From Patescibacteria group bacterium (GTDB lineage: Bacteria; Patescibacteriota; Minisyncoccia; UBA6257; 02-FULL-45-10c): a stretch of DNA of 38,650 nt. The DNA is taken from positions 67,070 to 105,719 of the forward strand of contig JAGWYA010000002.1 in NCBI GenBank assembly GCA_018969615.1, written 5' to 3'. Shown here piece by piece: positions 5,758 through 16,217 of the stretch (position 1 is its first letter; the number at the start of each line of letters is the position of its first letter). A model generated the notes under the pieces. That model did not search any database, had not been told where the DNA came from, and saw only the letters and a list, made by a program, of their open reading frames with translations. The position numbers and the translations under genes are program-made.

Positions 5758-5764
5758 GCCTATT

Positions 5765-5806
5765 GCATCAAGGTTACGCTGTCCAAGGACAGCGTAACCT
5801 TGATGC
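5765..5806. repeat. Perfect 42-bp palindrome
   Basis: GCATCAAGGTTACGCTGTCC, then AA, then its exact 20-bp reverse complement. There is no T-run on either side. It lies between vsr and the LexA-like gene. Confidence 0.9.
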
Positions 5807-6111
5807 ATCCTATTGTCAAGATTGATACCTCCAAAACTGAGACCACGAGCATCAATTTCGAGAGGTTGGATATGAATGATTTGCTTGAGAGCATAAGAGT
5901 GCTATCTGGGTATATTTTATCAAAAAATAAGGAGAAAAGGAAGGTGTTTTTCTGTCCGTACCAAGCTTATTATGACAGCCACTATGAACAAGTCCTTGCC
6001 GGAGCATTTTTATTTTCCAAACCGCGGTTTTTTGATCACCTGAACCACTTTGCCGCTTACCATGAAGTCATCGGACGCATGGATATAGATCGGCGGGAAG
6101 TCCTTGGTTGA
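5803..6111 (+). CDS. Possible small or truncated gene running antisense into the LexA-like gene
   Basis: 102 codons from ATG 5803, which sits in the right arm of the palindrome. The first ~70 residues (MHPIVKIDTSKTETTSINF... FCPYQAYYDSHYEQVLAGAFLF) have a plausible protein composition. From about base 6010 the frame simply reads antisense through the LexA-like 3' end. Likely an insertion brought the 5' part of a gene against lexA and the original tail was lost. No family was recognised, and it may be untranslated. Confidence 0.3.
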   Translation: MHPIVKIDTSKTETTSINFERLDMNDLLESIRVLSGYILSKNKEKRKVFFCPYQAYYDSHYEQVLAGAFLFSKPRFFDHLNHFAAYHEVIGRMDIDRREVLG

Positions 6112-13796: not shown

Positions 13797-14798
13797 TTAC
13801 CCTTTCTTTGTTCTTTTTATTGAAGATTTTTTGACTGATTCTTCAGAAAAAGGAACCCATTGATGACCCCACTCAAAAACAGTTTTACCAGTACGACTTG
13901 TTTCAAGGGGGAAATATCGTACTTGATATTTCTTGCCTTGGTATTCAACGACAGTTTTTGACTTGGCATTTGGATATACCTGGTCAAGCTCTTCTGTTAA
14001 TCTTTCTTCGGGAGTTTTTTCAATTTTGCCAGATTGTTTTAGCGCCTGTTCAACTGTTCGCAATCTTCGATCTGCCGCTTGTTGTCTGGCTCTACCAGCA
14101 TTCGGATTATTTGATCTACCACCATAATCTTTATTCGCTTCTTCTAGTGCTTCTTTATAATCTTCCTTGGTATATTCTTGTCTTTCATCTTTTAATTCTT
14201 CAAGGGCGTTTTCAAGAAGATTTAAACCATTTTTTTCTTCAATGTCACTTATATTTTCTTCAATTGCATCCCATACAGCACTACCGACAAAATCTTCACC
14301 AAGTTTCTTTTCGAGGTCTTTTCCCAGTTTTTCCCACGACACAACTTCTTTTTTAGCTTTTTCTATCATGGCACGAATTTCTGAAATTGGTGGTTTACGT
14401 TTTATAAAATCTTGGATTGGCTTAATATCTTGTCGATGTCTTTTTTCTCTTTGGTCATTTCGATACCAAACTAAGTCGGTAGTCCAATCCATTTCAAATT
14501 CTAGAAAACCATATTGCTTAAATTTTTTATTAAAAACCTTTCCTACATCCTCAACTTTATCAAAAAATTGCCCGGATAACTTATTGCCCTCCTTATTGAA
14601 ACGCTTTAATTCTTCGGTATTACCAGATCCGTGTTCCGATAAATGCATAATAATCCGGTCATATAAATCGGTTAGTTTAGGATCAAATTCCCGAATAATC
14701 TCTTGTTTATTTTTTTCTTCTGTTTCTCTGTACTCTCTATGGACTTTTTCATTTTCTGATTCGGAAACAGAATGTTCTGGGCTAAATTTTTCTTTCAT
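13797..14798 (-). CDS. Unrecognised, highly charged coiled-coil-like protein
   Basis: 333 residues, very rich in Glu and Lys. There are long helical stretches (ENALEELKDERQEYTKEDYKEALEEANKDY) and a polar, Asn/Gly/Arg-rich break (GGRSNNPNAGRARQQAADRR). The C-terminus is more folded (VEYQGKKYQVRYFPLETSRTGKTVFEWGHQWVPF). No signal peptide or membrane segment is seen. It is clearly more AT-rich than its neighbours and lies next to the tmRNA 3' end, a common integration site, so horizontal acquisition is likely. Function is unknown. Confidence 0.6.
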   Translation of the reverse strand: MKEKFSPEHSVSESENEKVHREYRETEEKNKQEIIREFDPKLTDLYDRIIMHLSEHGSGNTEELKRFNKEGNKLSGQFFDKVEDVGKVFNKKFKQYGFLEFEMDWTTDLVWYRNDQREKRHRQDIKPIQDFIKRKPPISEIRAMIEKAKKEVVSWEKLGKDLEKKLGEDFVGSAVWDAIEENISDIEEKNGLNLLENALEELKDERQEYTKEDYKEALEEANKDYGGRSNNPNAGRARQQAADRRLRTVEQALKQSGKIEKTPEERLTEELDQVYPNAKSKTVVEYQGKKYQVRYFPLETSRTGKTVFEWGHQWVPFSEESVKKSSIKRTKKG

Positions 14799-14823: not shown

Positions 14824-15090
14824 AGTTCAACTCCCGTAATCTGCCCCCCCTTATTTTTCGCAACCTTTTATAATTTTGGAAAACTCAAAAATAAGCGATA
14901 AATAAAGCGAAATTCACCCTTTTTGAGAGTTCAACTCTCATGATGTGGAGACGACGGGAACAAGGCGTCGCTCGCGGCTGGATAGCCCGCTCGCTTGCTT
15001 AAACCCTCCGCCGCACCCCGACCCCCGTCTGGGACACCTTCGGTTTCCCATTCCTTCCTGATACGGGGTGCGGCTGGTTCAATTCCCGCA
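14824..15090. repeat. Scarred region with partial copies of the tmRNA 3' end
   Basis: TGTGGAGACGACGGGAA (from about 14944) repeats exactly the last bases of the tmRNA gene as read on the plus strand at 15132. GGTTCAATTCCCG (about 15077) and AGTTCAACTCCCGT (about 14823) are inverted T-arm copies. Also present are the palindrome TGAGAGTT-c-AACTCTCA (14924-14940) and an 11-bp inverted repeat GCCGCACCCCG/CGGGGTGCGGC. No gene is evident. It looks like remnants of integration events. Confidence 0.5.
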
Positions 15091-15124: not shown

Positions 15125-15133
15125 CTTTATGTG

Positions 15134-15776
15134 TGGAGACGACGGGAATTGAACCCGTGTCCGAATCATGTCCAAATAAGGATTGCTACGGATGTAGCCG
15201 GATTTGAAAGCGCTGAAAGAGGCAGAACCCGGCAAAACACTTTCAGCTTTTCCGGAATTGTTCGTTATCGTTGCCGGAAGTGGCGATAATATAACCTGCT
15301 GAGTGTGACACCGGAATTTCCTTAGCAGATATCAGGAGTTCCGATGCTTCGGCGCAAGGCCGGAGAATGGACTAAGCGACAGCTAATGCTGGCATTCTCA
15401 GTCTGCTTGATAAGTTTGCACTTATTAGGCTTGCGATTTTTTAACGAAGTTGCGACTTCTGCGCAAATGTTTCCACTACATTGAAATCATTGATTTTGTA
15501 TTAATTTCCAGGAGCGAGGAGAAAATCGTATCTGTAGATACCTTTTCGACAAGCAACGCAGAAATTGATCAAAATCAAGATTCCCAAAGGGTAAGGAAAT
15601 TTTTATTACCTTCTGCGTCGTTCCTCCTCGATGTGGTCTAGACCACGATCTCGTCGTCACTCCTTGAATCTAATTCAAAATTTCTCTTATCAATGAGTGA
15701 AAATATTTGCGCAGAAGTCGCTTCGCACTTCGATCCGATCCTTATTTTTCAATGACCGTCGATGCCTAACGTCCCC
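15134..15776 (-). ncRNA. ssrA: tmRNA, unusually long
   Basis: The 5' end GGGGACG pairs with 3' CGTCTCC, including the G3-U pair that alanyl-tRNA synthetase recognises. Next is GGCATCGACGG, the tmRNA counterpart of GGATTCGAC. The T-arm is ACGGGTTCAATTCCCGT; the discriminator is A and CCA is not encoded. Helix P2 is supported by AAATAAGGAT near the 5' end pairing with ATCCTTATTT near the 3' end, extended by CGGAT/ATCCG. The tandem stop TAATAA (15427-15422) precedes the hairpin ATAAGT-gcaa-ACTTAT, as in other tmRNAs. The tag frame is unclear: codons before TAA read NFVKKSQA, while the expected GCA resume codon is out of frame. At 643 nt it is about 270 nt longer than usual. Confidence 0.88.
15452..15721 (-). 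repeat. 270-nt insert in tmRNA bounded by a 21-nt inverted repeat
   Basis: GCGACTTCTGCGCAAAT-a-TTT (15721-15701, minus) pairs with AAA-c-ATTTGCGCAGAAGTCGC (15472-15452), 20 of 21 positions. It is flanked further by CGAAGT/ACTTCG. Internally TCATTGAT/ATCAATGA, CGAGGAG/CTCCTCG, ACGCAGAA/TTCTGCGT and the palindrome GTGGTCTAGACCAC suggest one long branched arm. Removing it would leave 373 nt, a normal tmRNA length. Confidence 0.75.
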
Positions 15777-16209
15777 ATTCGCGGCGCAGTTCGCGCTCGG
15801 TCTCACGGCGTTTGATCGTTTCACGTTTGTCGTGAGCTTTCTTATGCCGTGCGAGGCCTACCGCTACTTTTATTCTGCGGCCTTTATCATAGATAGACAA
15901 GGGCACCATCGTCAAGCCGCCTTCCTTCGCTTTGCCGAGCAAATAACGCAGTTCTTTCTTGGTTAGGAGGAGTCGGCGGGTCCGTCCGGGATCGTAGCCG
16001 GCGGGGGCGTTCTTGATCTGGAACGCGGGGATCTGCGCGTTGATCAGCTCCGCGCCGTCCGGCCGGATGAGGACATAGGAGCCGGTCAGGTTCGCGTGCC
16101 CGGCCTTGATCGATTTCACTTCCTGTCCGATCAGCGCAACGCCGGCCTCGTAGGTCTCGAGGATCTCGTAGTCGAACCGGGCTTTTCTGTTTTCCGCGAG
16201 CGTTTTCAT
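15766..16209 (-). CDS. smpB: SsrA-binding protein SmpB
   Basis: 147 residues from ATG 16209; a GTG sits just before it. It has the SmpB core: ENRKARFDYEILETYEAGVALIGQEVKSIKAG, AELINAQIPAF, GYDPGRTRRLLLTKKELRYLLGKAKEGGLTMVPLSIY and the basic tail KKAHDKRETIKRRETERELRREWGR. It delivers tmRNA to stalled ribosomes. The last codons and TAG stop lie inside the first 11 nt of ssrA, so the two genes overlap. TATAAT ends 8 nt before ATG, implying a leaderless or nearly leaderless mRNA. Confidence 0.96.
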   Translation of the reverse strand: MKTLAENRKARFDYEILETYEAGVALIGQEVKSIKAGHANLTGSYVLIRPDGAELINAQIPAFQIKNAPAGYDPGRTRRLLLTKKELRYLLGKAKEGGLTMVPLSIYDKGRRIKVAVGLARHKKAHDKRETIKRRETERELRREWGR

Positions 16210-16217
16210 CACTTTTT

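Follow-up and report, generated by a model that had tools for sequence, protein, structure and literature searches.

The DNA analysed here is a stretch of 38,650 nucleotides (hereafter the window) from the genome of an ultra-small bacterium of the candidate phylum Patescibacteria (Harrisonbacteria lineage), in which the tmRNA gene ssrA is interrupted by a 270-nt segment with complementary ends. The question raised by this locus is what the segment is, how it came to lie within a gene for a structured RNA, and what becomes of it once the gene is transcribed. Judged from sequence comparison, the insert is very probably a copy of a mobile DNA element, palindromic, non-coding and MITE-like, which entered ssrA where the two PK1 helices meet. 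The evidence for this reading is set out below, together with the alternatives and the predicted fate of the insert in the RNA.

The interrupted ssrA gene

On the minus strand, smpB is followed directly by ssrA, and the features of the locus are collected in Table 1. The initial annotation had placed the ends of ssrA 643 nt apart, and this was confirmed by the acceptor stem, in which GGGGACG, beginning at 15776, forms the 5' strand and pairs with CGUCUCC, which runs to 15135 (seven pairs, the third being G-U), and by the discriminator at 15134. The acceptor stem, T-arm, PK1, tag and stop of ssrA are all intact, and so is smpB. ARAGORN reported zero tmRNAs in the native window; after deletion of 15452-15721 it gave a tmRNA of 374 nt with the resume codon GCA and the tag ANLSSRLRMPALAVA, in agreement with the earlier proposal that removal of the insert leaves a gene of normal size. 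The gene was thus missed by standard tools in this genome because the insert is present.

The Rfam model RF00023 gave a sub-threshold match to the native gene (40.2 bits, cut-off 47) and put its 5' end at 15491, within the insert, which nearly recovers the 5' end near 15480 that the initial annotation had raised as a competing placement. In this alignment the posterior is about 0.4 in the 5' half, the acceptor stem is absent and most P2 pairs are broken, and the 5' end at 15491 is therefore regarded as an artefact of the insert; ARAGORN and the sibling genome also favour 15776. A search of the genome revealed a single ssrA, other matches being of 14-26 bits and mostly tRNA-sized, and a tandem or duplicated ssrA was accordingly rejected.

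The comparison with close relatives, which had also been suggested, gave a normal gene: the ssrA of a same-genus genome (G001) is 372 nt long, scores 123.6 bits, and has an ordinary PK1 (CGAG UG GCAAC|CUCG UACCAA GUUGC) and no insert. Several other Patescibacteria ssrA genes are somewhat long according to ARAGORN (404-457 nt) and lack the element, for example L074 (2985-3441) and L120 (3316-3735).

Table 1. Features of the interrupted ssrA locus, in window coordinates.
Feature	Position	Strand	Description	Evidence
ssrA (tmRNA)	15134..15776	-	643 nt; 373 nt after insert removal	acceptor/T-arm pairing; ARAGORN after insert removal; normal-length same-genus ssrA
smpB	15766..16212	-	overlaps ssrA 5' end by 11 nt	Pfam PF01668, E 4e-47
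Tag reading frame	15372..15419	-	ANLSSRLRMPALAVA*, GCA resume codon	ARAGORN on insert-free sequence
Inserted palindromic element (very probable)	15452..15721 (model match 15451-15721)	-	270 nt	R1 match; fold z-score; homologous copies elsewhere
Left terminal inverted repeat	15705..15721	-	GCGACTTCTGCGCAAAT	sequence
Right terminal inverted repeat	15452..15468	-	ATTTGCGCAGAAGTCGC	exact complement of GCGACTTCTGCGCAAAT
PK1 5' strands	15723..15732	-	S1 CGAAG (15732-15728), S2 UGCGA (15727-15723)	sequence; sibling arranged alike
PK1 S1 3' strand	15445..15449	-	CUUCG	sequence
PK1 S2 3' strand	15432..15436	-	UCGCA	sequence

Site and folding of the insert

That the insert sits at PK1 had been recognised before, and its position can now be refined to between the 5' strand of S2 and the 3' strand of S1. 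The layout is CGAAG-UGCGA-A-insert-AA-CUUCG-UUAAAAAA-UCGCA, in which S1 is formed by CGAAG/CUUCG and S2 by UGCGA/UCGCA. The inverted repeat described at the insert ends is present and its arms are exact complements, but they are perfect over 17 nt and not 21; past one A.C mismatch, the outer stem comprises 24 pairs in 25 positions. Chance alone would give about 0.0009 perfect 17-nt inverted repeats within 400 nt in the window, and the sole other one present is a short hairpin at 5764-5807.

The insert folds at -112 kcal/mol (z = -11.3), and none of 200 shuffled sequences folded as well. When the whole gene was folded, 196 insert bases paired within the insert and none with the tmRNA, the outer stem had a mean pair probability of 0.99, and the acceptor stem and T-arm still formed. 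The longest reading frame mostly within the insert encodes 63 amino acids (15450-15641, plus strand) and lies on the antisense strand, and the insert has no coding capacity.

A dispersed family of quasi-palindromes

A search of the same genome gave further copies of the insert at 72% and 67% identity. Members of the family in this genome are located upstream of rplJ (the 72% copy), at C2:10801-11070, and within the 23S rRNA gene at C11:570-837. BLAST detected copies in 13 of the 17 genomes of the family (Ca. Harrisonbacteria-like), at differing loci. A covariance model, designated R1, was built from the alignment of 16 copies and matched 68 of the order's 244 genomes (best E below 1e-6 in 63), 47 of a class-wide sample of 384, and, in a phylum sample of 380, three genomes beyond the class; the E-values are rough, and most matching genomes reached 1e-20 or better. 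In the large searches, no more than 3-8 candidate places were scored in each genome, so that the copy numbers are minimum values.

The length of the element is uniform (257-279 nt in 81 of the 83 copies examined), and most copies are intergenic. The consensus of the 16 copies consists of an outer stem, two long arms and a CCC-GGG mini-hairpin at a four-way junction, with 80 pairs in total. Two-sided changes occur at 55 of these pairs, and pairing is seen in 94.4% of the cells of the counted structure, compared with 78.6% in shuffles and 33-50% when the partners were slid by 1-3 columns; covariation as good as that observed was found in 0 of 500 shuffles. The terminal stems are perfect or near-perfect in nearly all copies, and among subfamilies the terminal sequence differs while both ends remain complementary. 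Two shortened copies of about 183-197 nt (L030 and L139) were also noted, of which L030 looks like a deletion derivative without arm 2. In one subfamily (L176, L132, L183, L190, L191, L195, L203), the termini GGGGAGCAGGATTCG...TTCGAATCCTGCTCCCC resemble the T-arm and acceptor end of a tRNA gene.

The element is, on this comparative sequence evidence, best described as a dispersed quasi-palindrome of about 270 bp and not as a tmRNA domain. The initial annotation had offered an inserted palindromic element and a new permanent domain of tmRNA as two of its readings; the former is borne out by homologues at dozens of unrelated positions here and in related genomes, among them 16S and 23S rRNA genes, and the latter is not supported, as the family exists apart from tmRNA and the same-genus ssrA lacks the element. 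Among the other family copies examined (13 of 17 genomes with copies), no location in ssrA was found, and R1 was absent from all 80 other smpB-linked loci checked, which were accordingly rejected as carriers. Several properties expected of a MITE were found: many dispersed, non-orthologous copies, terminal inverted repeats without coding sequence, and sites that are empty in relatives (16S, ssrA, rpmI-rplT), the rpmI-rplT site being filled in G001 and empty in the window genome. Copies upstream of rplJ in two genera (L022, G000:C9; L028, G009:C14) have different self-complementary outer stems, which suggests either long residence at the site or repeated insertion.

Several possible sources of mobility were considered. 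The insert had no BLAST match in phage or plasmid records, and an origin from either was rejected on this ground. The Y1 transposase (PF01797) occurs in 4 of the 17 family genomes and is absent from the other 13 and from the window genome; it is not correlated with the element, and an IS200/Y1 transposase (REP/RAYT) was rejected as mobiliser. In this transposase screen, which covered Y1, no autonomous relative or mobilising enzyme was found. No consistent direct repeat indicative of target-site duplication was found beside the element ends, the sites being too diverged for exact empty-site alignment. At the gathering threshold, the element family had no match in Rfam.

Copies in ribosomal RNA genes

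Nine copies lie in stable-RNA genes: the one in this ssrA and, as placed by Rfam scans of the element loci, one in a 16S rRNA gene (L025/L145), and seven in 23S rRNA genes (L169, L172, L175, L180, L182, L184, and L186, which is the C11 copy of the window genome, G000). Two of the 23S copies, L172 and L175, come from different families and occupy the same small hairpin loop, at model position about 227-230. With the joined flanks of the 16S copy as the query, homologous 16S genes were found in 11 genomes, including G005 itself. In the relatives, the homology continues without a break across the G005 insertion site, and the base-level alignments that span the site show no element. The copies in 16S, 23S and ssrA therefore indicate, as far as sequence comparison can tell, that the element has repeatedly invaded genes for structured RNAs and also occupies intergenic sites.

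Two further observations concern these operons. At L169 (G002:C16), a single rRNA operon contains two copies, of which the first (552-821) lies just upstream of the 23S gene and the second (1501-1773) within it. In the window assembly, there are two differing 16S regions (G000:C4:239794-240103 and G000:C8:1-307, 88% and 84% identical to the query), so that part of the assembly may be mixed, or two rRNA copies may be present.

Maintenance at the DNA or RNA level

Mismatches in the outer stem comprise 58 G.U and 62 A.C, and over all consensus pairs 160 G.U and 136 A.C. The sense folds are no more stable than the antisense folds (p 0.38), and nearly every copy matches R1 on both strands, the ssrA insert scoring 272 bits sense and 196 bits antisense. 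Because G.U and A.C are similarly frequent, sense and antisense fold equally well and the model matches on two strands, the palindrome appears from its sequence to be maintained at the DNA level; selection on one RNA strand was rejected on the mismatch counts and folding energies. The two-strand matches would be explained by a two-fold pseudo-symmetry through which the opposite strand presents the same fold: the purine-rich loops of arm 1 could form tandem G-A pairs (for example CGACGAG opposite GAGGAG), with arm 2 as their complement.

Alternatively, the element may have a function as a structured RNA module, such as a leader or regulatory RNA, which spreads through its use in transcripts and serves as a working extension of PK1 in tmRNA. 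The strong conservation of the structure agrees with this, as do three observations on orientation and position. All eight other stable-RNA-gene copies are oriented like the ssrA copy (p about 0.004), with orientation labels anchored on the ssrA copy and R1 trained on copies that include it. An ATG lies within 8 nt of the right end in 22 of 83 copies (p 6e-6), above expectation. Co-directional intergenic copies are sense rather than antisense by 26 to 13 (p 0.053), some of the underlying ORF calls being unreliable. The orientation, the start codons and the lean to sense hint at some constraint at the level of RNA or of the replication strand, and the lean could be explained by a strand-specific insertion step or by selection on transcripts. 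However, the mismatch counts, the folding energies and the opposite-strand matches given above do not point to one RNA strand, and the element is found in a minority of genomes only, at differing loci; a functional RNA module is therefore considered unlikely.

Proposed mechanism and alternative explanations

By the comparison above, the palindromic element inserted into ssrA at the S2/S1 junction of PK1. It probably survived there because PK1 tolerates insertions: in Escherichia coli, tagging still occurs when PK1 is cut down to a hairpin or exchanged for single-stranded RNA (PMC4236655). With a long helix emerging from the S2/S1 junction, both PK1 helices and the tRNA-like domain would still be able to form. 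In the transcript, the 24-bp outer stem would be a candidate substrate for RNase III, by analogy with 23S rRNA intervening sequences (IVS). The window genome encodes RNase III (246 bits), and the arrangement resembles that of an IVS, with a long terminal stem (24 of 25 bp) at a tolerated RNA site, PK1, and sister copies in rRNA. Excision would not be followed by ligation, and the tmRNA would then consist of a 5' piece of about 55 nt and a 3' piece of about 318 nt, held together by the acceptor stem, P2 and PK1. This corresponds to the remaining reading of the initial annotation, an intervening sequence taken out by an RNase, which is plausible. By the IVS analogy, we consider such a cut by RNase III to be reasonably probable. 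The main alternative, permanent retention of the insert as a harmless arm, is plausible and of lower probability, and a broken or rarely used tmRNA is improbable.

Two other explanations would change the nature of the insert itself. If it were a self-splicing or protein-spliced intron, its removal would restore an intact 373-nt tmRNA, which deletion of the segment does in silico, and introns are known in tmRNA genes, all of them reported in the T-loop (PMC11915505). On the other side, Rfam intron models gave no match either at the gathering threshold or up to E 5, by which a group I or group II intron was rejected; the insert ends pair with each other, conserved splice-site bases or a catalytic core were not recognised, and the element ends and lengths vary slightly among sites. 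An intron is thus very unlikely, in line with the doubt about a group I intron voiced in the initial annotation. Alternatively, ssrA could be disrupted and non-functional, or the insert could be an assembly chimera. The interrupted gene is known from one metagenome-style assembly, and its native Rfam score lies under the cut-off; nevertheless, the functional parts of ssrA and smpB are preserved, the insert is located within a 105-kb contig of a genome with a single ssrA, and it is an authentic full-length member of the family, all of which makes this explanation very unlikely.

A broader possibility, which is rather doubtful at present, is that the insert represents a phylum-wide, unnamed class of mobile elements. 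Its members would be 270-nt two-fold-symmetric quasi-palindromes of which each DNA strand folds alike into an outer stem, a purine-rich arm of apparent tandem G-A pairs and a complementary pyrimidine arm. They might be moved by a hairpin- or cruciform-recognising mechanism that prefers the transcribed sense, and in ssrA they might give rise to a two-piece tmRNA with its break in PK1 and a non-permuted gene order.

Comparison with known systems

Palindromic elements inside stable-RNA genes have been reported before, as Rickettsia palindromic elements (RPE) occur inside tmRNA and M1 (RNase P) RNA genes (PMC2229807), so a palindromic element in ssrA has precedent. RPE are likewise small, palindromic and bounded by terminal inverted repeats, and they are scattered over a reduced genome. 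However, they measure 105-146 bp, have been called Rickettsia-specific and are also found within protein genes, whereas the Patescibacteria element is about 270 bp, has two long arms and a mini-hairpin, and is mostly intergenic or in rRNA; the two differ in size and host. Correia/NEMIS and other bacterial MITEs are also small, end in inverted repeats and often lie between genes, and NEMIS transcripts have been proposed as RNase III substrates (PMC2229807). In the element described here, by contrast, the subfamily ends differ yet stay complementary, and neither a target duplication nor a parent transposon was found.

The IVS of 23S rRNA resemble the element in being hairpin inserts with a long terminal stem at tolerated rRNA sites, and according to Tsurumaki et al. 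(2024; PMC11270868) they are cleaved by RNase III without ligation. Unlike the IVS, the element is also present at many non-rRNA loci and in tmRNA, and its cleavage is only predicted. The same study describes the rRNA genes of CPR bacteria as often containing short, ORF-less, non-intron inserts of uncharacterised nature, mostly at the tops or bases of stem-loops, and its passages on them name no repeat family; part of these inserts may be this element. A candidate identity is thereby supplied for some of these puzzling inserts.

In a 2025 census of 97,179 unique tmRNA sequences, three major gene forms were distinguished: standard, with a T-loop group I intron, and permuted (PMC11915505). The T-loop intron and the permuted two-piece gene are known interruptions of ssrA as well; here, in contrast, the site is PK1, no intron features are present and the gene order is linear, and PK1 is thus added to the known interruption sites of tmRNA. 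The open-access full-text literature yielded no described palindromic or MITE element in Patescibacteria, and relative to the sources searched, the element family, the host phylum and the PK1 site appear to be new. How the element moves, and what becomes of it in rRNA and tmRNA, can now be put to the test, and the annotation of tmRNA and rRNA in Patescibacteria should benefit.

Sequence downstream of ssrA

An exact 17-bp direct repeat, TGTGGAGACGACGGGAA, is present at 14944-14960 and at 15132-15148. The latter copy is the 3' end of ssrA, and the former is a displaced fragment 188 bp on. The repeat resembles the trace left by an integrative element or genomic island for which the 3' end of ssrA served as attachment site. 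Adjoining the displaced fragment, a charged protein of 333 amino acids without a Pfam match is encoded at 13797-14798 on the minus strand, possibly as cargo of a former island.
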